From a virus: 21,317 bases of DNA. Under the pieces are notes generated by a model that was not told the origin of the DNA, did not search any database, and saw only the letters and a program-made list of their open reading frames with translations. Shown piece after piece: positions 276-21,044 of the stretch; the stretch's first letter is position 1, and every line of letters starts with the position of its first letter. The stretch covers positions 1 to 21,317 of the IMG/VR virus record IMGVR_UViG_3300024265_000224; one strand, 5' to 3'. A program made the position numbers and the translations under genes.

Positions 276-872
276 ATGGCAGAAGCATTAAGAGCAAAAC
301 TAACAAACATCACTGAATTAATACCATATGAATTTAATGTTAAAAAACACACTAAAACTCAGATAGAAGGTATAGCAGAATCCATGAAAAAATTTGGAAT
401 ATATGCTCCAATAGTTGTGGATAAGAATAACATAATTGTAATAGGTCATGGTAGATTAGAAGCAGCAAAACTATTAGAAATGAAACAGTATCCTGTAATT
501 AAGAACGAGGACATGACAAAGGAAGAAGCAAAGGGATTACGACTTTTAGATAACAGGATCTCAGAATCTGATTGGGATATAGATAATTTAAAACATGAAA
601 TGGAAGATATGAAATTTGATTTTGATGCGTTCAACATTAACTTTGACGACTTATACATGCCAAAACTGCAAGATATGTCAATAGATATTGATCCGTCAGA
701 CCAACACATGGAATCTTATTTACATGGTAACATTAAACAAATTACCTTAGTATTCAGCAACGAAGAATTTGAGAAAGTGATGGCTCGAATGGAAAAAGCA
801 GGTAAAGAATTAGAAGCAGAATCAAATACTGAAATACTAATTAAACTCTTAGATCATTACGAATCTAAATGA
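276..872 (+). CDS. ParB/sulfiredoxin-fold domain protein
   Basis: The 198-residue product has the N-terminal ParB-like domain. An early strand leads to the hallmark GHGRLEAAKLL at residues 57-67 (the GxxR nucleotide-binding motif). The block DMTKEEAKGLRLLDNRIS (79-96) matches the 'adaptation' segment of phage ParB-like proteins that sit near DNA methylases and terminases. The C-terminal third is acidic and unrecognised, and there is no ParB-type HTH domain, so plasmid partitioning is unlikely. In this fold known members bind or hydrolyse nucleotides or nick DNA; here the exact activity is unknown. Its stop overlaps the start of the dioxygenase by ATGA, which implies coupled translation and a shared role, plausibly in DNA modification. 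The fold call is strong, the function inferred. Confidence 0.85.
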   Translation: MAEALRAKLTNITELIPYEFNVKKHTKTQIEGIAESMKKFGIYAPIVVDKNNIIVIGHGRLEAAKLLEMKQYPVIKNEDMTKEEAKGLRLLDNRISESDWDIDNLKHEMEDMKFDFDAFNINFDDLYMPKLQDMSIDIDPSDQHMESYLHGNIKQITLVFSNEEFEKVMARMEKAGKELEAESNTEILIKLLDHYESK

Positions 873-1891
873 AAACATATTATGTAACACCACTTGATCT
901 TAACTACAAAGATTATATTAAAAGACCTGCTCATCCTAAAGATTATACTAATTTAATTAAGGGAGATGCCATTGTTATAGATAGTTCTACAAATGAAATT
1001 GTAGTAGTCTATATGAAATTACCTGAAAAGGAAATAAAACTACTTAGAGAAGTTGTTAAGAGAGTACATTACCAAAAGACTAGAAGAACATCAGGTCTTA
1101 GTACGGACAGTAGAATATTTGGGTACATGCCAAGAGAAACTATACGAAAAGATTATTGCAGTTCATCAGCATTAGTAAGAGATCAACCAAAATATCATGC
1201 AATTATTGCAAACTTTGGTGCAAGATTAGCACAATATTATCAACAATTAGCACCAGAAGTATATACTGAACATAAAAAAATAGCAGATGAAAAGATACTA
1301 CCTGAATGGAGAATAAAAGGTAGTCCATTTACAAGTGGCATTATCAATAAGAATACGCAACTTAATTATCATTTTGACACTGGTAACTTTAGAGATGTTT
1401 ATAGTAATATGATTGCATTTAAGAATCAGTGTGAAGGTGGTTACTTAGCATTTCCAATGTACGACATGGCACTAGAAATAGGAGATGGAACTATTGCTTT
1501 CTTTAACGGACAAAAGCATTTGCATGGAGTGACACCATTTACCAAAGGAGTTGGTGGTTATAGATTTACTCTAGTATATTATACACTACAACAAATGTGG
1601 AAATGTGATCCAGTAGATGAGGAAGTTGCTAGAATAAGAGATAGAAAAACTAATAGAGAAAAGAATAGAGTAAAGTATTTGAAAGGAGAGTTAAACTTTT
1701 GTCAGAAGTGCATGACTTGGACAGAACCTAGTGGTGATATGTGTACTAAATGTAATTTAAAGTACAGAAAGAAGAAATCATTTAATGAAGATATATTTAC
1801 AGAACTTGGTATAGACCACAAATATATTGGAGTACCATTTACTTCACTACCATTGGATATTCAGAAGAAACTGAATAATTATAAACGATGA
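869..1891 (+). CDS. 2-oxoglutarate/Fe(II) dioxygenase, TET/JBP-like, with C-terminal zinc ribbon
   Basis: The 340-residue product has a double-stranded beta-helix dioxygenase core. Iron ligands are H168 and D170 in NYHFDTGNF and H219 in HLHGVTPF; the 2-oxoglutarate-binding Arg is R232 in GYRFTLVYY. GGYLAFPMYDMALEIGDG (190-207) is the usual strand between them. The HxDxGN form and the GG-L-FP and HGVTP blocks resemble the TET/JBP branch, which hydroxylates 5-methylcytosine or thymine in DNA, more than prolyl hydroxylases; this is my reading, not a search result. A four-Cys zinc ribbon follows (C278, C281, C292, C295), suggesting nucleic-acid or protein binding. It overlaps the genes on both sides by ATGA, between a ParB-like protein and an FkbM methyltransferase. 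Dioxygenase is secure; a DNA substrate is inference. Confidence 0.82.
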   Translation: MKTYYVTPLDLNYKDYIKRPAHPKDYTNLIKGDAIVIDSSTNEIVVVYMKLPEKEIKLLREVVKRVHYQKTRRTSGLSTDSRIFGYMPRETIRKDYCSSSALVRDQPKYHAIIANFGARLAQYYQQLAPEVYTEHKKIADEKILPEWRIKGSPFTSGIINKNTQLNYHFDTGNFRDVYSNMIAFKNQCEGGYLAFPMYDMALEIGDGTIAFFNGQKHLHGVTPFTKGVGGYRFTLVYYTLQQMWKCDPVDEEVARIRDRKTNREKNRVKYLKGELNFCQKCMTWTEPSGDMCTKCNLKYRKKKSFNEDIFTELGIDHKYIGVPFTSLPLDIQKKLNNYKR

Positions 1892-2541
1892 AACTCTATC
1901 AACATAAATCAGGTCTTATGTTAAGGGAGGGCAGTACAGACCATAAAACATTAGTTGAAATAAAAAGAGAATATACTTGGATGCCTGTAAGAGGTAAAAA
2001 GGTATTAGATATTGGTGGTTGTTTTGGTGGTTATTCTAAACATGCAGTAGAAAGTGGTGCAAGTGAAGTATGGGTATTTGAACCAGAACCTAGAAATGTT
2101 GAAACAATAGTTCAAAATCTACAAGGTAAGCATGGAGTAACTGTTTTTAATTGTGCTGTAGTGCATGATGATTTAGAGAAAATACCATTTTACATAAGTC
2201 CATCTGGAAAATCTTATGGCAACTTCTCTACATCTAAGTATAGAGGTAGAACTGAGATTAAAGTTCAAACAAAGCGATTTAGTAAAATACTAGATGAATT
2301 TAAACCAGAGGTGATTAAAATGGATTGTGAAGGACAAGAGTTTGACCTACTTAGAGAACCATTACCTGATTATGTGAAATACTTTACTATGGAAATTCAT
2401 TTCAATTCTCCTGCTGGATTAAAACCTACTTGGCTAGAAAGAACTCCACAACTGATTAAACAGTTTGATAGTTGGGAATGTGTAAAGAAGCCAAAACTAT
2501 CACCGACTTTATGGCATACAATAGGAGCATGGAAAAGATGA
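1888..2541 (+). CDS. FkbM-family SAM-dependent methyltransferase
   Basis: The 217-residue product is a class I methyltransferase. Motif I is VLDIGGCFGGYS (39-50), the acidic ribose-binding strand is VFEPEPRN (63-70), and IKMDCEGQEFDLL (143-155) is the diagnostic FkbM block. FkbM enzymes usually O-methylate sugars or polyketides, so the target here may be a sugar made or transferred by the next two genes. Start ATG 1888 overlaps the dioxygenase stop (ATGA), and the stop overlaps the dehydrogenase start in the same way. The length fits a stand-alone FkbM domain. Family call is firm; the substrate is unknown. Confidence 0.88.
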   Translation: MKLYQHKSGLMLREGSTDHKTLVEIKREYTWMPVRGKKVLDIGGCFGGYSKHAVESGASEVWVFEPEPRNVETIVQNLQGKHGVTVFNCAVVHDDLEKIPFYISPSGKSYGNFSTSKYRGRTEIKVQTKRFSKILDEFKPEVIKMDCEGQEFDLLREPLPDYVKYFTMEIHFNSPAGLKPTWLERTPQLIKQFDSWECVKKPKLSPTLWHTIGAWKR

Positions 2542-3374
2542 AGATTTGTATTATTGGAAGTGGTGTAGTAGGAAAGGCAACAGGAGATTCATTCATTGCA
2601 AAAAAACATGAAGTAACATTTAATGATATTAGCCATGATGTTCTAAAGAAATTACATTATCATGGATTTAAAGTGGGAGATAACACTCCAATAGTTGTTA
2701 AAGATTCTACTGTTGTATTTATTTGCGTTAATACTCCAACATTATCAAATGGCGAACAGGATTTAGAACAAGTAAATTCAGTCTTACCTTACATAGTGCA
2801 TGGTATAAACCAAAGTGATTCACCTACAACAATAATACTTAGAAGTACTGTACTTCCAACTAAATGTTATGGTGTTCTTGAATTTCTTAAACGTAATATT
2901 ATAGATAGAACATATCAGAAGGATTGGAATTTCTTTTACAATCCTGAGTTTCTAGTAGCAGAAAATGCATTTGAAACTATGAGCAATCCAGACAGAATTG
3001 TAGTTGGTGGAGAGAAAGCAAGTAATTGGGATGTAATTAATAGACTATATGGTGATTGGAATTGTGAAATAATAAAGACAGGATTAGGAGAAGCAGAGAT
3101 GATAAAATATGCATCTAATTGTTTTCTTGCTATGAAAATATCGTACTTTAATCAAATGGGTATTGTAGCAAATAAGTACGGACTTGATATTAAGACAATA
3201 GAGAGGGCAGTTAGTTTAGATAAAAGAATTGGTAATTACGGAACTATATCAGGTCGTGCTTATGGTGGTGCTTGCTTTCCTAAAGACACCAAAGCATTTA
3301 GTACGTTTATGAAAAATGTAGTTCCATTCGACTTAGTAAAAACAGCAATATTCATCAACGAGGATATGGAATAA
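2538..3374 (+). CDS. UDP-glucose/GDP-mannose dehydrogenase family protein, shortened
   Basis: From ATG 2538 the product is 278 residues. The NAD-binding Rossmann motif is IGSGVVGKATG (6-16). FICVNTPT (61-68), RSTVLP (102-107), YNPEFLVAENAF (134-145) and IKYASN (189-194, with K190 and N194) follow the family order, and the catalytic Cys is C246 in GGACFPKDTKAF. These enzymes oxidise a nucleotide sugar to its uronate in two NAD-dependent steps. Normal members are about 400-450 residues; this one stops soon after the catalytic Cys and lacks the C-terminal UDP-binding domain. The start at 2538 is chosen for the ATGA overlap; ATG 2529 is possible. It overlaps the glycosyltransferase start by TAATG. 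Either a minimal viral enzyme or one needing a partner. Confidence 0.87.
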   Translation: MKICIIGSGVVGKATGDSFIAKKHEVTFNDISHDVLKKLHYHGFKVGDNTPIVVKDSTVVFICVNTPTLSNGEQDLEQVNSVLPYIVHGINQSDSPTTIILRSTVLPTKCYGVLEFLKRNIIDRTYQKDWNFFYNPEFLVAENAFETMSNPDRIVVGGEKASNWDVINRLYGDWNCEIIKTGLGEAEMIKYASNCFLAMKISYFNQMGIVANKYGLDIKTIERAVSLDKRIGNYGTISGRAYGGACFPKDTKAFSTFMKNVVPFDLVKTAIFINEDME

Positions 3375-4318
3375 TGGATAAAGTAAATATGTTCTACTTG
3401 GCTAAGCCAATTTATGGTGGTTGGGTAACAGGAACTTGTCACCTAATGCATAAGATAGGACAGAAGGTAGTGTATAAAATAAGTAAGAAGTTAGAACAAA
3501 CAACAAGACCTTTTGGTTATGGCATATTTTATCAGAACGTTCCACCAGAAGCACTAAGTCAATTACCAAATGTATGTGTACAGGTTTTAGACCGACACCA
3601 TTATCAATATTTCAAATACTTTAACAAACCAATACTTATCCTACATGATACAATAGAAGTGGACTACTTTAAGAAACATCCAGATATTATTGAGGTCTTA
3701 CACAACTGTAAAAGAATAATAACTATCCGACAGAAGATCACTGATTATCTAAAACAGGTATTAGACATAGATTCTGAATATCTTTATCATCCATTCTTTC
3801 CATTTCCATTACCTGAAGTGTCTGAAAAAAAAGGTGCTGTAGCAACTAGCAGAATTGATTGGGATAAGCACACTGATGTAATAATAAAGGCAAATGACCT
3901 GTTAAACCAACAACAAAGAGTTGATATTTATGGAGCACCAAATCGTATGTATATTTATCACAAATTAACTCCAATAGGATTTGAGAAATACTACAAAGGT
4001 TCTTATCCAAAAGACTTTGGAGTAATTGGCAAGATGTTAGCACCTAAGAAATTTATGGTTGACTTAACGATGATAAAGAATGATGGTGGTGGAACTCAGT
4101 GGGGATTCTTAGAAGCAATACATGCAGGTTGTTGTTTAATTATGAATAGAGATTGGGTAAGAAAAGGTGGTGACTTTGTAGAAGGTGAGAATTGCTTGGC
4201 AGTAGATACACCAGAAGAACTAGCAGATATTTTAAAACGTGATCCAGATGTGAAGGATATTGTTAAAAACGCAAGAAAGATAGTTGAGAGAAATATACAA
4301 GTTGACTACAAATTTTGA
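3374..4318 (+). CDS. GT-B fold glycosyltransferase
   Basis: The 314-residue product has the C-terminal nucleotide-sugar domain of GT-B enzymes. A segment GAVATSRIDWDKHTDVIIKA (154-173) corresponds to the 'solo/reconnaissance' strand and helix of GT4-like enzymes. The block GGGTQWGFLEAIHAGCCLI (238-256), with E247, is the donor-binding E-x7-type motif, and EGENCLAVDTPEELADIL follows as usual. It is last in the operon and directly follows a nucleotide-sugar dehydrogenase, which suggests a uronic-acid donor. Acceptor could be hydroxylated DNA bases, virion protein or host glycan; the sequence cannot decide. About 380 gene-free bases follow. Confidence 0.82.
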   Translation: MDKVNMFYLAKPIYGGWVTGTCHLMHKIGQKVVYKISKKLEQTTRPFGYGIFYQNVPPEALSQLPNVCVQVLDRHHYQYFKYFNKPILILHDTIEVDYFKKHPDIIEVLHNCKRIITIRQKITDYLKQVLDIDSEYLYHPFFPFPLPEVSEKKGAVATSRIDWDKHTDVIIKANDLLNQQQRVDIYGAPNRMYIYHKLTPIGFEKYYKGSYPKDFGVIGKMLAPKKFMVDLTMIKNDGGGTQWGFLEAIHAGCCLIMNRDWVRKGGDFVEGENCLAVDTPEELADILKRDPDVKDIVKNARKIVERNIQVDYKF

Positions 4319-4702: not shown

Positions 4703-5386
4703 TTATACTAAATTCCAGTAGAAGTTATAAAAATTACAAGGTTTCTTAAAGCCTTCCCAACTTCCTTCCCAATATCTACATTTTATTGTATCTCCTAATC
4801 CATTATGTACTCCAACAGGAACTCCTTGAGGTGATTCACTCATTATAGTCCAACCATTAGGAAAGTTTCTACGTTCATAATCATCATTAGATATTTCATG
4901 TCCTAATCCCCAAATGTGACCAAACTCATGTAAGGTAGTAATTAACAAACTTCTATTATTTCTAGTTCCATTCCAAGTATTGATATACATAGGGCAAACA
5001 TCATCATTAGCATTATCAGTCCAACAAACTGCTACTCCATTTACTGTATCATAAACTCCATCTTTATCGTAAGACCATGCTTGATCTAAATAATAGACCA
5101 TTACATTACAATCAGGATGAACATAAGTGGCATTATTTACTCTGTGTCCAACTGTACCATTCATACCAAATATTCGTTCAAATTGATGATTCCATAAACC
5201 CATAGCAACAGAACCAATCATCATTTCTTCACCATCTAATGGCTCATTAAAACAAACTAGTGGTTTCTTCTCCCAAGTCCATTGTAAAGTGGGTATAGTA
5301 ACAGCGTCAGCACTTTGATAAACTACAAATCCCCAAGCCATAAACAGAATAAGAAGGGCAAATAGAACAGTTAGAATCTTATCCAT
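4703..5386 (-). CDS. Secreted or membrane-anchored matrixin-like zinc metallopeptidase
   Basis: The 227-residue product starts with a hydrophobic signal peptide or anchor (about residues 4-24). The metzincin site is HEFGHIWGLGH (153-163: H153, H157 and H163 bind zinc, E154 is catalytic), followed by a likely Met-turn in TIMSES (M182). Six Cys residues and four N-x-S/T sequons (N76, N85, N139, N144) fit an exported, disulfide-bonded, N-glycosylated protein. No prodomain with a cysteine switch is seen. It would cut proteins at or outside the cell surface, for example the host S-layer, during entry or exit. It is a single gene on the minus strand with a TATA-like box 29 bases upstream of its ATG. 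A second matrixin without signal peptide is at 16474-17271. Confidence 0.85.
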   Translation of the reverse strand: MDKILTVLFALLILFMAWGFVVYQSADAVTIPTLQWTWEKKPLVCFNEPLDGEEMMIGSVAMGLWNHQFERIFGMNGTVGHRVNNATYVHPDCNVMVYYLDQAWSYDKDGVYDTVNGVAVCWTDNANDDVCPMYINTWNGTRNNRSLLITTLHEFGHIWGLGHEISNDDYERRNFPNGWTIMSESPQGVPVGVHNGLGDTIKCRYWEGSWEGFKKPCNFYNFYWNLV

Positions 5387-7415: not shown

Positions 7416-7903
7416 CAGAACAAACTGAAAAGGATAAGGAGGTAGAAAAACGTAGAGTTAAGATAAATTTTATGCTAACCAAAGGTTTAACAGAATTAGA
7501 TATTGCTCAACAAACTGGTTGGTCTATTGCGACTATTGAAAGAGATGTTGCATGGTTAAGAGAAGAATCTAAGAATTGGATAGATACTCTAGCCAAGGGA
7601 GGTTTTATTTTTGAATGGCAGAAACATCAAGAGAAATTAAAAGATACAGAACGTCAACTGAATATTATGTTAGAGGAAACTGACTTAGATGAACAGAAGA
7701 AAGATGCAGAGGGCAAACCAAAAAGAAAGTACAAGATTAGAGGAGAAGAACGAGCAAAGATATTGAAACAAAGAGATGATAACATTGCAATGCAAAATCA
7801 AATGATGTTAGATGGTCCTACTGTGCATATTATGAAAACAAGATTAGGAGGATTGGAAGAAGATGGTCAAACAGCCAGCAAATTTTCGCAAGAAAGCCAA
7901 TGA
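7412..7903 (+). CDS. Terminase small subunit-like protein
   Basis: The 163-residue product has an N-terminal helix-turn-helix (about residues 25-50, GLTELDIAQQTGWSIATIER) followed by long charged helices, the usual layout of TerS DNA-recognition subunits. It overlaps the TerL start by 41 bases, which is the main support for the call. The start is the TTG at 7412, overlapping the preceding TGA; TTG 7406 would add two residues. It would bind viral DNA and pass it to TerL. Without a profile search an unrelated HTH regulator remains possible. Confidence 0.7.
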   Translation: MTEQTEKDKEVEKRRVKINFMLTKGLTELDIAQQTGWSIATIERDVAWLREESKNWIDTLAKGGFIFEWQKHQEKLKDTERQLNIMLEETDLDEQKKDAEGKPKRKYKIRGEERAKILKQRDDNIAMQNQMMLDGPTVHIMKTRLGGLEEDGQTASKFSQESQ

Positions 7904-9704
7904 GTATGGTCTTACTGAAACTGAAGTAGGATTACCAAAACTTCCTACTGATTATATCAAGTGGATAGAACAAGCAAGACCTATTGTAGAAGGTGGTATC
8001 CGTAGAGATTGGAGATTAACACCAATGTGGGAAGCACCATATTACGACAGAGAAGATTTAATGGTAGTTAATGGAAGGCAAACTTACAAATCTACATTTG
8101 CTACTGACTTGTTAGCATGTGAAACAACTTCTAAAAAAGGAAAGAGTGTAGCATACATTACCTATGATGATAATTCTAGGTCAGCATTTTCTAATCAGAA
8201 ATTAAGAGTAGGAACATTTCTTATGAATCCAGTACTTAGTAGATTTCCAAGACGAGGAAAATCAGCAGGTAATGTAGGTGAAGTATCTTTATTCAACAAC
8301 AGTTCTATCTATTGTATTACTGATAACTATGAGTACAGACATGCAGAAGGTAAATCATTATCATTAACAATTTGTGATGAAGCACAATATCAAGACATAC
8401 AATTCTTTCCTAAGTTACAAGAAACAATGACAGCAACCAAGGGAAGATTAGCAGTATTAGGAATTGGTGGAGAATCTGGTTCACCTTATGAAAAACTATG
8501 GCTTACTTCTAATCAAATGGAATGGATATATGATGACAAGTTTTGGCGAGAGGGATTAAGATTTGGTTACACTAATCTAAATGGAAAAGAAGAATACATA
8601 TTTGCTAACACTAATTTGATAGTTGGTGATTATCTTTACAAATTACTCAAAGGTCATTGGGAAATTCCTAGTGGTATAAAGGATAATCAATTCTTTCATG
8701 GCTATCATATGCCACAACATATCTTTCCTACAATACCTTTGACAATAAAAGACGCAGTAGAAAAGTATGGATTAAAACCAAGAGATAGTATAGAGTACAA
8801 ACAGATTCACAATCCTCCTAGTGTTTATCTTACTCACGTTCTTGGTGGATTCTATCATGCAGTAAGACGACCTGTAACAAGAGAAATGGTATTGGCTTGT
8901 ATGGAACCATATCCATATTATCGACTTAGTACACCAGAACAAATAGCAGGAATAAAAGATATTTACCAAGATACTGTTAAGATAGGTCTTGGAGTTGACT
9001 TTGGTTCAGGTCCTAGTAGAAGTGCTACAGTAATTGCAATAATAATTCACTGGTTAAAATCTAATAGATACCATCTAGCATATTTAGATAAAAGACCACA
9101 GGAAAATCAATTAGAACAGGCAGAACTAATCAATGGAATATTCAAGAGGGCAAAATGTGATATAGGAATTGGTGATTTAGGATACGGACAGAACCAAGTT
9201 AAGTTAATTCAAGATGGTGGTGCTAATCCTAAGACTGGAAAACTATTTGATGGTGTAGGTAGTGGTGCTTTCATAGGCAGTAGAATGATAGGAGATGAAC
9301 GCAAACCATTCTTAAAATATGAGAAGAAAATAGATGAACATGGTGAAATTGCAGGAACTTTCACAATGGATAAGACTACAGAGATTCAAGGATTTATTGA
9401 TATGTTAGGAATACAAATATCTCATCCAAATCATCCTACTAACAGTAGATATAGACGACCTAAATTTATGATACCATATCATTATGAATCACAGTGGGAA
9501 ACAGAATGGTTAATTGATGACTTTACTGATATAACTAGAAGGGATTTAGAAAAGTCTGATGATATTGCAGTAACTGAGGATAGACGAATAAAGGCAAGGA
9601 AACAGTTTAACCATCCAAAAGATAGTACAATGGCTATCATATACGCAAAACGTGCAATCGAATCAGCAACTGAATGGTATTGGGTAAGTGCTGGAAGTTC
9701 TTAA
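7863..9704 (+). CDS. terL: Terminase large subunit
   Basis: The 613-residue product is the DNA-packaging ATPase/nuclease. The ATPase half has a Walker A-like VVNGRQTYKST (68-78) with K76 and S77, and Walker B LTICDEAQ (168-175) with D172 and E173. The nuclease half has the RNase H-like first acidic strand GLGVDFGSGPSRSATV (375-390, D379), a second acid in GIGDLGYG (D438) and a third near HPKDSTMAIIYAKRA (D587). The Walker A departs from the usual GKS/T: Tyr replaces the Gly before Lys. Length is normal. No portal gene follows, although phages usually place it there; a SPOUT-like gene comes next. Confidence 0.95.
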   Translation: MVKQPANFRKKANEYGLTETEVGLPKLPTDYIKWIEQARPIVEGGIRRDWRLTPMWEAPYYDREDLMVVNGRQTYKSTFATDLLACETTSKKGKSVAYITYDDNSRSAFSNQKLRVGTFLMNPVLSRFPRRGKSAGNVGEVSLFNNSSIYCITDNYEYRHAEGKSLSLTICDEAQYQDIQFFPKLQETMTATKGRLAVLGIGGESGSPYEKLWLTSNQMEWIYDDKFWREGLRFGYTNLNGKEEYIFANTNLIVGDYLYKLLKGHWEIPSGIKDNQFFHGYHMPQHIFPTIPLTIKDAVEKYGLKPRDSIEYKQIHNPPSVYLTHVLGGFYHAVRRPVTREMVLACMEPYPYYRLSTPEQIAGIKDIYQDTVKIGLGVDFGSGPSRSATVIAIIIHWLKSNRYHLAYLDKRPQENQLEQAELINGIFKRAKCDIGIGDLGYGQNQVKLIQDGGANPKTGKLFDGVGSGAFIGSRMIGDERKPFLKYEKKIDEHGEIAGTFTMDKTTEIQGFIDMLGIQISHPNHPTNSRYRRPKFMIPYHYESQWETEWLIDDFTDITRRDLEKSDDIAVTEDRRIKARKQFNHPKDSTMAIIYAKRAIESATEWYWVSAGSS

Positions 9705-11761: not shown

Positions 11762-11792
11762 AGGCTTAAAAGATAAAGGTGCGAATCAGTGA
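11700..11792 (+). CDS. Overlapping helical microprotein
   Basis: The 30-residue frame from ATG 11700 (MSGGHLRKIDIDIMEELERI) overlaps the membrane microprotein out of frame by 62 bases. It runs into the start of the metallopeptidase gene. It could alternatively begin at TTG 11637, overlapping the previous TGA, giving 51 residues. Confidence 0.4.
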   Translation: MSGGHLRKIDIDIMEELERIKGLKDKGANQ

Positions 11793-12204
11793 TATGGAAA
11801 TCTCCTGTACTCCTGATGAAAACGTTTTTGACGATGGTGATTGGGAATTGATTGATGCCTTAGTAAGAGTATTCAGTTCTATGTTTCATATCAAAGGTCA
11901 TGTAACTGTACTAGATGATACCCAATGGAAAAACTATATGACAAACGGAGAAACACCAGCAGAGAAAAAGAAAACAGAAGCAGAAATAGATTCATTGTTT
12001 GGACAAGCAGATACTGAAACTAATTCAATATGGTTAAACCCAAGAATACTTAAACGAAGTTATGATCAACTAGTAGATACTATTGTACATGAATTATTAC
12101 ATATCAGATTCCCTAAAGACTCAGAGGAACAGATTATGAATAAAGAGAGAAAACTTATAGGGAGGTTTGATACGTTGAGAAAACAGAGATGGTGTTATGT
12201 CTAA
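11779..12204 (+). CDS. SprT-like putative zinc metallopeptidase
   Basis: The 141-residue product has the zinc motif VHELLHIRFP (103-112: H104, E105, H108) after a helix LVDTI, followed by DSEEQIMNKERKLIG, a typical arrangement in SprT-like and other minimal gluzincin-type domains where an acidic residue downstream is the third ligand. It has no signal peptide, so it acts in the cytoplasm or virion. GTG 11779 is listed; ATG 11794 is an equally good start. It overlaps the phosphoesterase start by eight bases. Possible roles include prohead maturation or cleavage of DNA-protein crosslinks; neither is shown. Confidence 0.7.
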   Translation: MRISDMEISCTPDENVFDDGDWELIDALVRVFSSMFHIKGHVTVLDDTQWKNYMTNGETPAEKKKTEAEIDSLFGQADTETNSIWLNPRILKRSYDQLVDTIVHELLHIRFPKDSEEQIMNKERKLIGRFDTLRKQRWCYV

Positions 12205-15158: not shown

Positions 15159-15319
15159 GAAAATATACTGAAGAAGCATTAAAGGAAACTATTAAGACTG
15201 TAATAGGAAAGCCAATAACAGTGGATTTTGATACAGAGAATACAATAGGAGTAGTAACTGATGCTTGGTATGATGAGAGTATTCATGCAATAAGATTCAA
15301 AGGAAAAATTTATGATTAA
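15155..15319 (+). CDS. Small protein of unknown function
   Basis: The 54-residue product (MRKYTEEALKETIKTVIGKP start) looks like a helix followed by beta strands (TIGVVTDAWYDESIHAIRF), a small alpha/beta domain. ATGA overlap upstream; it overlaps the sulfotransferase-like start by eight bases. Confidence 0.6.
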   Translation: MRKYTEEALKETIKTVIGKPITVDFDTENTIGVVTDAWYDESIHAIRFKGKIYD

Positions 15320-15770
15320 GTTAGTTATATTAGGATTCAGTAAATGTGGACAACACTCTGTTATAGAACATCTGAATAAGAAGGGCTTTAATGTTAAGAA
15401 GTTAGAAATAGCATATCAACTAGGTGCTCCTTACACACTCAAAAGAAAGTATCCTAATTATAGACCTGTATTTGTAACAAGAGATCCTGCTGATATGGTT
15501 TGGTCAATGTATAATTATGAGTATAGGCAGGAGATGAGTTTTGAAAGTTTTGTGGAGAGGAAAGATGTAGTTGATAAAGCAGATTTTAGGAAGTGGATTA
15601 AACCATTTATTGAGAGAGAATTAAATCCACTGATATTAAACTTGGATGAGATGATGAAGGAAGAAGGATTTCCACATCTAAACAAGAATAAGAAATACCA
15701 TGAGATGCCTTTAAAGTTTAGAGCACTAGTTGATAATATACTTAAATCCAAACAGATCAAAGTTCTGTAA
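15312..15770 (+). CDS. Sulfotransferase-like P-loop protein (copy 1)
   Basis: The 152-residue product has a first strand and variant P-loop LVILGFSKCGQHSVIEHL (4-21), corresponding to the 5'-phosphosulfate loop of PAPS-dependent sulfotransferases. RPVFVTRDPADMVWSMYNYE (51-70) contains the 3'-phosphate-binding Arg (R57) and Ser (S65). It is shorter than typical sulfotransferases (250-300). A paralogue of 200 residues is at 18871-19473 with the same two blocks and a shared FPHxN element near the end. Likely substrates are cell-surface or virion glycans or Tyr residues; a small-molecule kinase with a similar fold is an alternative. It shares one base with the next gene. Confidence 0.65.
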   Translation: MIKLVILGFSKCGQHSVIEHLNKKGFNVKKLEIAYQLGAPYTLKRKYPNYRPVFVTRDPADMVWSMYNYEYRQEMSFESFVERKDVVDKADFRKWIKPFIERELNPLILNLDEMMKEEGFPHLNKNKKYHEMPLKFRALVDNILKSKQIKVL

Positions 15771-16473: not shown

Positions 16474-17271
16474 ATGCCAACAAGACCTATTCAAATCACA
16501 ACCAGAAAGAAATACTGTCTAATGCTAGATCCTGATATGAAAGGAAAGAGTACAGGCAGAGTTCCTAGAAAGATTAAGACTAATTTTGAAACTAATATTA
16601 AAACTGAACCACTAATAGATGAGTGGCGTACTAAATGGGAAGATGGTATTGTAACTTATGGTGTAACAAGAAAAACAAATAAGAGTAAAGATATTTCTGA
16701 TTGGGAGAACAGAGCATTAACAATAGCATTAAGAACTTGGGGATTAAGAATATCAGATATTAAGTTTAGAAGAATAAGAAAGATAGATCCAGTTCATCCA
16801 CCTGATATTATACTTAGGTTTGTACCAAGAGATGAAGATCAACTGTTTAAGAATAATCTAAATGTATTAGCCTATGCTTATTTCCCAACTACATCACCAA
16901 TAGGAGGGGATATTACTTTCAACGATGATTTGATTTGGAGTAAAGATGGACTACCAGTTTCTGCACATGATTATGATCCTACTAACTATCCTAATGCTGA
17001 CACTAAAGTAAAGTTTAGAACTTACAATATTATCCACACTTTAACTCACGAAGTAGGACATGCATTAGGTCTAAAACATAATGATGAGTGTAGTGATTGT
17101 GTAATGTATCCATACTATAACGGAACTGTTACCTTAAAGGAAGGGGATATGGAAGAAGATGTTCCAAGAATACAGGCATTTTATGGTGCTAGAGGTCTTA
17201 GTAGATACTGGATTTCCTATTTCCACAATAGGTCTATAAGACGCTTTAATGGTGTAAGACCACTGGTTTGA
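16474..17271 (+). CDS. Matrixin (M10-type) zinc metallopeptidase without signal peptide
   Basis: The 265-residue product is a near-canonical matrixin catalytic domain. VTYGV (60-64) begins it, LAYAYFPTTSPIGGDITFND (132-151) matches the structural calcium/zinc strand ('A-x-x-P ... G-D-I-x-F'), HEVGHALGLKH (192-202) gives zinc ligands H192, H196, H202 and catalytic E193, and VMYPYY has the Met-turn M211. VPRIQAFYG (230-238) is the usual final helix. The first 50 residues are basic with no signal peptide or membrane helix and no cysteine-switch motif. It could be released through the adjacent holin-like protein to digest a protein cell wall (S-layer), or act inside the virion. Matrixin identity is firm. 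Confidence 0.93.
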   Translation: MPTRPIQITTRKKYCLMLDPDMKGKSTGRVPRKIKTNFETNIKTEPLIDEWRTKWEDGIVTYGVTRKTNKSKDISDWENRALTIALRTWGLRISDIKFRRIRKIDPVHPPDIILRFVPRDEDQLFKNNLNVLAYAYFPTTSPIGGDITFNDDLIWSKDGLPVSAHDYDPTNYPNADTKVKFRTYNIIHTLTHEVGHALGLKHNDECSDCVMYPYYNGTVTLKEGDMEEDVPRIQAFYGARGLSRYWISYFHNRSIRRFNGVRPLV

Positions 17272-18457: not shown

Positions 18458-18874
18458 ATGGGTTCTTATCCACCTCAAGGAAGTGCAATTTCTCTTATAT
18501 CAACAACTCAAGATGAAGCAATTAGTGTTACTGATACATTCTCAACAGATTTTGTTATAGAATCAAACCATGTTAGAGATTCTGCTATTGTTATGTTTAA
18601 TGATGATGCAACTCAATCATTAATTTATAGAATTTACGGAACTCCAAAAGAATCAACAACTGTTCCAGCAGATGCAGATACATCATGGGTAAATATAATA
18701 GACCGAGAAGTAGAAGATCCAGCAGCATATGATCATAATTTCTCAAGATCAATTCCAGCAAAGGGAACATTCTATGAATCATTCTCAAATAAATGGAGTT
18801 GGGTTAGAATAGAAATGAAATCTTCTAGTGGAACAATAACTGCTAGAGTATGGCATCGTGGAACAACAAGATGA
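18458..18874 (+). CDS. Beta-rich virion protein
   Basis: The 138-residue product (MGSYPPQGSAISLISTTQDE start) has alternating hydrophobic strands, e.g. SAIVMFNDDATQSLIYRIYG and WVRIEMKSSSGTITARVWH, with little helix. It follows a similar gene by four bases. It is likely a tail, neck or decoration protein; no defined family seen. Confidence 0.6.
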   Translation: MGSYPPQGSAISLISTTQDEAISVTDTFSTDFVIESNHVRDSAIVMFNDDATQSLIYRIYGTPKESTTVPADADTSWVNIIDREVEDPAAYDHNFSRSIPAKGTFYESFSNKWSWVRIEMKSSSGTITARVWHRGTTR

Positions 18875-19473
18875 GTGTTGTAGTTTATCCACCAGATTTA
18901 CCATGTGATTTATCACCAATAGAATTTACAAAATATACTGCTAAGAATCCTAAAGTAAAATTAACTGGAAAAAAGTTTATTGTATTAGGATTTATGAAGT
19001 GTGGACAAAATTCTGTTGTAGAGTGGTTACAAGCAAAACATCATACAGTGATATTAAATGAAAGATTGATTGAACCTAAGTACATAAAAGAATGGGAAAA
19101 ATGCTATTCAGATTTTAGACCTGTAATAGTTGTAAGAGAACCAATAGAAAGATGTTGGTCACAGTACTGGTATATGGAATGGAATAAAAGAATGTCATAT
19201 GAGGATTTTCTTAAACATGATTTTCATGGAAGAAGTGACCAATCAGATCCTAAAATAATATCAGATTATAGGAGGTGGCTTGTACCTTGGTTAAAACATA
19301 ATCCATTAATATATATGCTAGAATACTTAAAAACATTAAAAGATTTTCCACATGTTAACTCTACCACTAGAAAAGGTTTGAAATATCCTAAAATGACAGA
19401 TAAAGATAGAGAGTTGACAAAGAGGTTTTTAAAGGAAGAAATTAGAAAAAATACTTATAATCTTAGAGAATAA
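18871..19473 (+). CDS. Sulfotransferase-like P-loop protein (copy 2)
   Basis: From ATG 18871 (ATGA overlap; in-frame ATG 18850 rejected) the product is 200 residues. FIVLGFMKCGQNSVVEWL (36-53) is the 5'-phosphosulfate loop and RPVIVVREPIERCWSQYWYM (83-102) the 3'-phosphate block with R89 and S97. Both blocks closely match copy 1 at 15312 (GFSKCGQHSV and VTRDPADMVWSMY), and both proteins share a late FPHxN element. An N-terminal extension of about 34 residues is specific to this copy. The position between virion genes suggests sulfation of a virion component or receptor-like glycan, which is inference. Confidence 0.65.
   Translation: MSVVVYPPDLPCDLSPIEFTKYTAKNPKVKLTGKKFIVLGFMKCGQNSVVEWLQAKHHTVILNERLIEPKYIKEWEKCYSDFRPVIVVREPIERCWSQYWYMEWNKRMSYEDFLKHDFHGRSDQSDPKIISDYRRWLVPWLKHNPLIYMLEYLKTLKDFPHVNSTTRKGLKYPKMTDKDRELTKRFLKEEIRKNTYNLRE
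19455..19460 (+). promoter_or_regulatory. TATA-like box inside the end of the sulfotransferase-like gene
   Basis: TTATAA is 29 bases upstream of ATG 19484, suggesting a separate leaderless transcript for the structural gene. Confidence 0.4.
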
Positions 19474-20483: not shown

Positions 20484-21044
20484 ATGGTTTTACAGAGAAA
20501 CAAATATGATGCTGCTTATTTTGGTGATGTAATTGAATCAGGTGGAACTAGACACGATGCTGGTTACACAAATTATTTAGAACTACACACTAATTGGAAA
20601 CAAAAACTTCAAATACAAAAATTTCTAACTAGACATAACATTCCCAAAACATCTAAGATCCTAGAACTAGGTGCAGGAGTTGGGTTCATGGGAAAGATAG
20701 CAACAGAAGAAGGTTATACAGATTGGACTTGCGTTGACTGGTCTAATTGGGCTAAAAGACATGAGGTTTATCCAGTAACAGAAGAAGATGGTCTTGTATT
20801 TTTACAAGCACAAACTGATAATGCCTTTGACTACATTGTATCTAGAGCATTTCTTGAGTGTATTCCATCTAACCAACTACAAAACTATGCAACTGAAGGA
20901 AAACGAGTAGCAACAAACCACATCCACACAACATTTCTTTCAGCCAACACTCAATATTATGAAATTAAGACTATACCTGATTGGGCTACAGACTTTCTTA
21001 ACGATCCTAATATCATTATAGAGGATTACAGAAAAGATGGCTAA
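20484..21044 (+). CDS. Class I SAM-dependent methyltransferase
   Basis: The 186-residue product has motif I KILELGAGVGFMGKIA (58-73), an acidic strand WTCVDWSNWAKRH (82-94) and motif IV-like FDYIVSRAFLECIP (115-128). The N-terminal 50 residues (HDAGYTNYLELHTNWKQKL) form the usual cap helices. This layout is common in viral methyltransferases of unknown target. It lies between structural genes, so a virion or glycan target is possible. In-frame TGA 20463 rules out an earlier start. The stop overlaps the next gene by eight bases. Confidence 0.8.
   Translation: MVLQRNKYDAAYFGDVIESGGTRHDAGYTNYLELHTNWKQKLQIQKFLTRHNIPKTSKILELGAGVGFMGKIATEEGYTDWTCVDWSNWAKRHEVYPVTEEDGLVFLQAQTDNAFDYIVSRAFLECIPSNQLQNYATEGKRVATNHIHTTFLSANTQYYEIKTIPDWATDFLNDPNIIIEDYRKDG

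Follow-up and report, generated by a model that had tools for sequence, protein, structure and literature searches.

The whole 21,317-base linear stretch of IMG/VR record IMGVR_UViG_3300024265_000224 (positions 1 to 21,317, hereafter the window), a fragment of an uncultivated virus, carries at 276-4318 an operon in which genes for a ParB-fold protein, a TET/JBP-like dioxygenase, an FkbM-family methyltransferase, a sugar dehydrogenase and a glycosyltransferase (GT) follow one another. The question raised by this locus is whether such genes modify the bases of the viral DNA or build a glycan for the surface of the virion or of the host. A preliminary description had put the five open reading frames (ORFs) in one operon and all of them were found at its coordinates on the + strand, with successive overlaps of 4, 4, 4 and 1 bases: the 4-base overlap is ATGA at three junctions, while the single-base one, TAATG, joins dehydrogenase and GT. 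From the comparative analysis reported here, we conclude that the operon very probably serves DNA-base hydroxymethylation followed by the attachment of a sugar.

Judging from its sequence, the second protein (869..1891, + strand, 340 amino acids, aa) is a true TET/JBP-family dioxygenase of the 2-oxoglutarate (2OG)-Fe(II) type. The Pfam Tet_JBP family (PF12851) matches it with 56.3 bits against a curated cut-off of 34.9 (E 2.9e-15) while the generic 2OG-FeII_Oxy_3 family scores 0.01, so that the identity first proposed holds against other dioxygenase profiles. The HxD motif (H168, D170), H219 and the 2OG-binding R232 are invariant in an alignment of 11 sequences, and a profile built on eight TET relatives returned Naegleria Tet and TET2 as the top, weakly matched, PDB sequences. 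Its C-terminal CxxC-CxxC ribbon is private to the window (1/129 TETs). The PHROG label "queuine tRNA-ribosyltransferase" (phrog_6059) obtained for this protein was dropped, the domain being Tet_JBP; actinophage TETs widely carry the same label or a DpdA-like one (e.g. NC_011044), apparently a propagated misannotation. The preceding gene (276..872, + strand) encodes the ParB-fold protein of 198 aa, which matches PHROG 620 (1.2e-39) and, slightly under the cut-off, Pfam ParB_N (1.6e-5).

Relatives of both the TET and the GT were reached through alignments only, as scans of viral contigs with either single protein returned none, and the divergence within the 11-sequence TET alignment made it unsuitable for scanning. 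Using the window TET aligned with seven actinophage TETs, the IMG/VR scan gave 442 relatives, the best 80 of which (43-53% identical to the window TET) were kept, making 81 loci together with the window. Of these 81 loci, window included, 74 have a ParB gene upstream of TET at a distance of no more than 4 ORFs, and the ParB-fold protein is probably the DNA-engaging partner of TET. The slot neighbouring TET is taken by the TET-associated glycosyltransferase (TAGT, PF20691) alone at 51 loci and by the GT family of the window at 13 in all; an aGPT/ADDT-type enzyme or a kinase is found at 9, FkbM at 3 (including the window) and a C5-methyltransferase at 2. A PIG-L deacetylase is also among the base-modifying candidates near TET, and 3 of the 81 loci have no candidate. 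Concerning TAGT, the calls on two representatives are near the Pfam cut-off but below it, and one representative was assigned by PHROG to beta-glucosyl-HMC-alpha-glucosyltransferase (phrog_842, 6.8e-10). In related viral contigs TET is thus linked with ParB and with base-modifying enzymes, as the preliminary description had anticipated.

The last gene of the operon (3374..4318, + strand) encodes the GT, for which we found a weak Pfam match (0.0024, under the cut-off) and nothing convincing in PHROGs or NCBIfam. Its virus family, which has no good Pfam or PHROG model, is given here the working name GT17. Foldseek comparison of an AlphaFold2 model of the protein (predicted local distance difference test, pLDDT, 87.4) returned the UDP-sugar GT4 enzymes HepE, MshA and BshA with template modelling (TM) scores of ~0.65, and a GT-B/GT4-like fold is predicted. 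The protein gives no PF20691 match and clusters on its own, and tblastn found no relative of it in the phage collection. When viral contigs were scanned with a GT alignment, 118 relatives were obtained, of which we kept 80. TET lies within 3 ORFs of the GT in 51 of these 80 loci, in 44 of them with ParB as well; in the window the GT is the third gene after TET. Among the 29 loci lacking TET, 25 hold a homologue of the HMUDK_hel protein (PF18723, 1.6e-46) and/or of the thymidylate-synthase-like protein (PF00303, 7.5e-21) of locus L161, whereas neither kind of homologue occurs in any of the 51 TET-containing loci. Since the two contexts never mix, this GT appears to go with two alternative routes to hydroxymethylated pyrimidines. 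Pfam and PHROG cannot separate thymidylate synthase from hydroxymethylase activity, and we read the thymidylate-synthase-like proteins of these loci as hydroxymethylases by analogy with M6-like phages, in which a protein of this type acts together with aG/PT-PPlase1 to hypermodify thymidine (PMC9599517). It should be noted that the counts of both surveys, which share a dozen loci, refer to records and not to independent events, because close relatives are included. Radical-SAM proteins also recur in hypermodification clusters, either adjoining the GT or flanked by TAGT genes (L143:5027-6001, L151:7659-8708 and L017:3803-4792, the last of the SPASM type).

These linkages bear directly on the possibility that dehydrogenase, FkbM and GT build a methylated uronic-acid glycan of the virion or the host surface, with TET and ParB as chance neighbours. 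The dehydrogenase and FkbM families are indeed common in capsule and S-layer glycan loci, and the GT fold resembles that of cell-wall and small-molecule GT4 enzymes. However, the GT relatives adjoin TET or, in 25 of the 29 other cases, a 5-hydroxymethyldeoxyuridine (5-hmdU)-kinase-type or thymidylate-synthase-like gene, FkbM recurs in the same TET and hydroxymethylase settings, and all five window genes overlap. Surface glycan synthesis was rejected on this gene linkage and we consider it highly improbable; both the TET-centred and the GT-centred survey strongly favour DNA hypermodification, as had initially been preferred.

The FkbM-family protein (1888..2541, + strand, 217 aa; PF05050 2.8e-11, TIGR01444 1.9e-21) was seen again beside TET in loci L022 and L075 and in phage HTVC112P, and also in the hydroxymethylase-type GT clusters L138 and L142. 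With the FkbM of L142, a member of a thymidylate-synthase/HMUDK/GT cluster, it shares 42% identity. This recurrence in both settings supports the earlier suggestion that FkbM is a step of the same pathway.

The place of the dehydrogenase (2538..3374, + strand, 278 aa) is less clear. The protein is of the UDP-glucose 6-dehydrogenase type, with PF03721 and PF00984 domains and TIGR03026 above the cut-off; its best equivalog is the UDP-glucose dehydrogenase AglM (3.6e-49), and the catalytic motifs GGACFPKD and KYASNCF are retained. Several points speak against its proposed part in the pathway: it consists of the NAD-binding and central domains, without the C-terminal UDP-binding domain PF03720 that the dehydrogenases of the SP-15 and Aphanizomenon phages possess; and no comparable gene is present at any other surveyed TET or GT17 locus, so that it could be a private addition of this virus. 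A frameshift or truncation artefact was ruled out, since the GT start comes straight after and aligns with the starts of its relatives, and since two other viral dehydrogenases, those of the TET virus C48C1 and of Microbacterium phage Tyrumbra, are equally short and likewise without the UDP-binding domain. The original proposal, that the dehydrogenase makes a uronic acid which is then transferred, is uncertain for an enzyme without the UDP-binding domain, which may therefore work at another stage or yield another product. As the loss of the domain is common to the window, C48C1 and Tyrumbra, we considered oxidation at another stage, possibly of the DNA-bound sugar.

The same peculiarities would fit another explanation, namely that TET and GT modify DNA while the short dehydrogenase and FkbM were merely inserted and serve another purpose, for instance a change of host glycans. 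The dehydrogenase is unique to the window among the surveyed TET loci, besides lacking the UDP-binding domain, and the closest relatives of the window virus (L015, L016, L017 and L027) have PIG-L instead. This explanation is nevertheless unlikely in our opinion: gene overlaps are found on either side, a ParB-TAGT-short-dehydrogenase trio occurs in Tyrumbra, and FkbM recurs both with TET and with the GT.

Partners of TET can differ even between very similar enzymes. The TETs of L091, with TAGT, and L106, with the GT of the window type, are 97% identical over 299 aa. Loci L020 and L025 have common flanking genes and TETs 79% identical, the former carrying the GT and PIG-L and the latter a phrog_3271 protein and a P-loop kinase. 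The phrog_3271 protein of L025 has no Pfam match; this PHROG is also that of the gene 3 product of the ParB-TET phage Prince. Judging by L020 and L025, a single TET product may serve sugar transfer as well as the kinase/aGPT-ADDT route. On a quick TET tree we counted 27 partner changes, against a mean of 36 and a minimum of 32 with shuffled labels, so that partners partly follow descent but have also often been exchanged.

This exchange is relevant to the base on which TET would act. We moderately favour thymine, with 5-methylcytosine (5mC) as the lesser candidate. In the alternative, the pathway is the same but a C5-methyltransferase, either of the host or encoded unseen by the virus, provides 5mC, which TET oxidises to 5-hydroxymethylcytosine (5hmC) before the GT glycosylates it; we consider this possible, although clearly less probable than not. 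Several observations weigh in this direction. A C5-methyltransferase lies directly beside ParB and TET in L038 and L040, making 5mC a substrate candidate within the TET family; 30 of 151 Nitrosopumilaceae genomes encode a C5-methyltransferase, so that the hosts presumed for this virus sometimes make 5mC; and a viral C5-methyltransferase may lie outside the 21.3-kilobase fragment of this incomplete genome. Phage TETs were, moreover, reportedly found active on 5mC by Burke et al. in 2021. TAGT relatives, for their part, function in the 5hmC modification of T-even phages (PMC13390438; phrog_842). On the other hand, no match to the C5-methyltransferase family PF00145 came from 42 of the 44 related viral records or from the 11 TET-bearing genomes of isolate phages; the other context of the GT holds HMUDK_hel, a 5-hmdU-kinase domain; and a TET closely related to that of a GT locus supplies an enzyme of the aGPT/ADDT type together with a kinase. 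The ParB/TET/aGPT-PPlase2/kinase set of phage Tonitrus is described in a published study as probably hypermodifying thymidine (PMC11955845).

The host group was assigned through the terminase large subunit (7863..9704, + strand; PHROG 675, 1.6e-11). A terminase profile matched eight genome loci, all eight from Nitrosopumilales and with 45-51% identity, in assemblies of Nitrosopumilus, Nitrosarchaeum, Marine Group I or Nitrosopumilales and in some cases on contigs of 184-451 kilobases. These matches agree with the initial guess of an archaeal virus, and the virus is probably a tailed one infecting ammonia-oxidising archaea. It counts against this assignment that apart from the terminase no window protein matches those eight loci, so that the terminase alone carries it. 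The phosphatase of the window gave nothing among 101 genomes. TET was not found in 250 Nitrosopumilaceae genomes nor in the seven genomes that hold the terminase matches, in searches run without a positive control.

The terminases of L015, L016, L017 and L027 are 45-46% identical to that of the window, and we therefore regard these four as kin of the window virus. Three of them have the GT of the window type, and all four carry PIG-L and a sulfotransferase-like ORF, in contrast to the window operon with its FkbM and dehydrogenase. The order of the PIG-L deacetylase and then the sulfotransferase-like ORF behind the TET/GT genes recalls heparan-sulfate chemistry. A homologue of the ORF that comes immediately after PIG-L in these viruses is encoded in the window at 15312..15770 (+ strand), a sulfotransferase-like P-loop protein (PF00685, 0.093), and a second paralogue of 207 aa at 18850..19473 (+ strand) is 36% identical to it over 156 aa. 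The top Foldseek matches of the latter are heparan-sulfate sulfotransferases (best E 5.6e-4), obtained with a low-confidence model (pLDDT 65) too poor to carry a claim. Both proteins may belong to the pathway, the first as an outlying member.

Among known systems, the ParB-TET modules of Rhodococcus phage Tonitrus, Mycobacterium phage Prince and Gordonia phage Wooper have, like the window, ParB directly or nearly before TET; their TETs are ~30% identical to that of the window, and the operon lies near the terminase with more base-modifying enzymes behind. These modules go on with aGPT-PPlase and a 5-hydroxymethyluracil (5hmU) kinase, whereas the window goes on with FkbM, dehydrogenase and GT and, unlike them, probably derives from an archaeal virus. 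The TET and TAGT modules, which occur in most surveyed IMG/VR loci and, for example, in Arthrobacter phage Lilmac1015, share with the window a ParB-TET pair neighbouring a glycosyltransferase; the window GT, however, is GT-B/GT4-like and not a TAGT, a type whose place it occupies even next to a 97% identical TET, as L106 and L091 show. In Pelagibacter phage HTVC112P (gp17-gp19), ParB, TET and FkbM are homologous to those of the window and in the same order, but neither a dehydrogenase nor a GT follows.

A precedent for the sugar comes from Bacillus phage SP-15, in whose DNA glucuronolactone and glucose are attached to a thymine-derived base, and which encodes a UDP-glucose dehydrogenase; dehydrogenase and GTs are tied there to glucuronate on that base, a dihydroxypentyl-uracil with glucose and glucuronate (PMC5977210). 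This makes a uronic acid plausible for the window virus as well. The hypermodified base of SP-15 is believed to arise at the nucleotide level, its dehydrogenase has three domains and no TET was found in this phage, unlike in the window. Tyrumbra gp83-85 (L182:7602-9789) are an overlapping ParB, a TAGT-family GT and the dehydrogenase without UDP-binding domain. In the complete genome of this phage neither a TET nor a PF00303 thymidylate-synthase-like gene was found, and, lacking TET, the module may serve another base or route. The window dehydrogenase also matches 54 Microbacterium phage records, many of them annotated with an adjoining GT. In phage C48C1 (L014:16584-20031), an unassigned ORF and then the gene for a UDP-galactopyranose mutase (PF03275, 5.6e-52) come after TET, a possible sign that the DNA carries galactofuranose; the short UDP-glucose dehydrogenase of this phage and an epimerase lie ~12 kilobases upstream.

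We propose a post-replicative pathway in a tailed virus whose hosts would be Nitrosopumilales archaea. In it, the ParB-fold protein would probably engage DNA together with TET, which would hydroxylate the 5-methyl group of a DNA pyrimidine, thymine being likelier than 5mC. The GT4-like enzyme would add a sugar onto the resulting 5-hydroxymethyl group, the short UDP-glucose-dehydrogenase-like enzyme would supply or make the uronic-acid form of this sugar, and FkbM would O-methylate it, the product protecting viral DNA against restriction and other defences that recognise DNA. Certainty falls progressively from thymine as the base to O-methylation and then to the uronic acid, and the uronic-acid and O-methyl steps, taken alone, have in our judgement slightly less than an even chance. 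Family identities, TET residues, layout, GT/FkbM linkage and the terminase-based host group are what sequence and comparison provide, and from them we infer the enzymatic activities, the base, the sugar, the order of the steps and the protective role. A more daring version, in which the short dehydrogenase oxidises the DNA-attached sugar and FkbM then methylates it, giving O-methylated glycuronosyl-pyrimidines to which the sulfotransferase-like paralogues may add sulfate, seems to us fairly unlikely; if true, oxidising a sugar already on the DNA polymer would add a new step to DNA modification.

Elsewhere the window encodes two metzincin-type proteases, a clear matrixin at 16474-17271 (+ strand; PF00413, 2.5e-20) and a candidate with a weak match (0.0016) at 4703-5386 on the - strand. 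Under the respective cut-offs are a SprT-like metalloprotease candidate at 11779-12204 (PF10263, 2.8e-4) and, near the right end, a second S-adenosylmethionine (SAM)-dependent methyltransferase-like protein at 20484-21044 (PF13489, 2.2e-5).

Each part of the operon is of a known kind, and what is new is the combination of genes, the archaeal-virus setting and the likely role of the GT family. No such DNA-modification system for viruses of ammonia-oxidising archaea was found in the literature searched, and the present locus would extend TET-based hypermodification to a virus of these archaea, which are hosts important in the nitrogen cycle. DNA-base glycosylation also becomes the probable role of a GT family that has over 100 viral relatives and that Pfam and PHROG do not model well. 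From the comparison it seems, finally, that the enzymes tailoring the sugar (deacetylase, methyltransferase, dehydrogenase and perhaps sulfotransferase) are swapped among viruses behind a constant ParB-TET core, and the possible new DNA nucleosides that would result can be tested directly.

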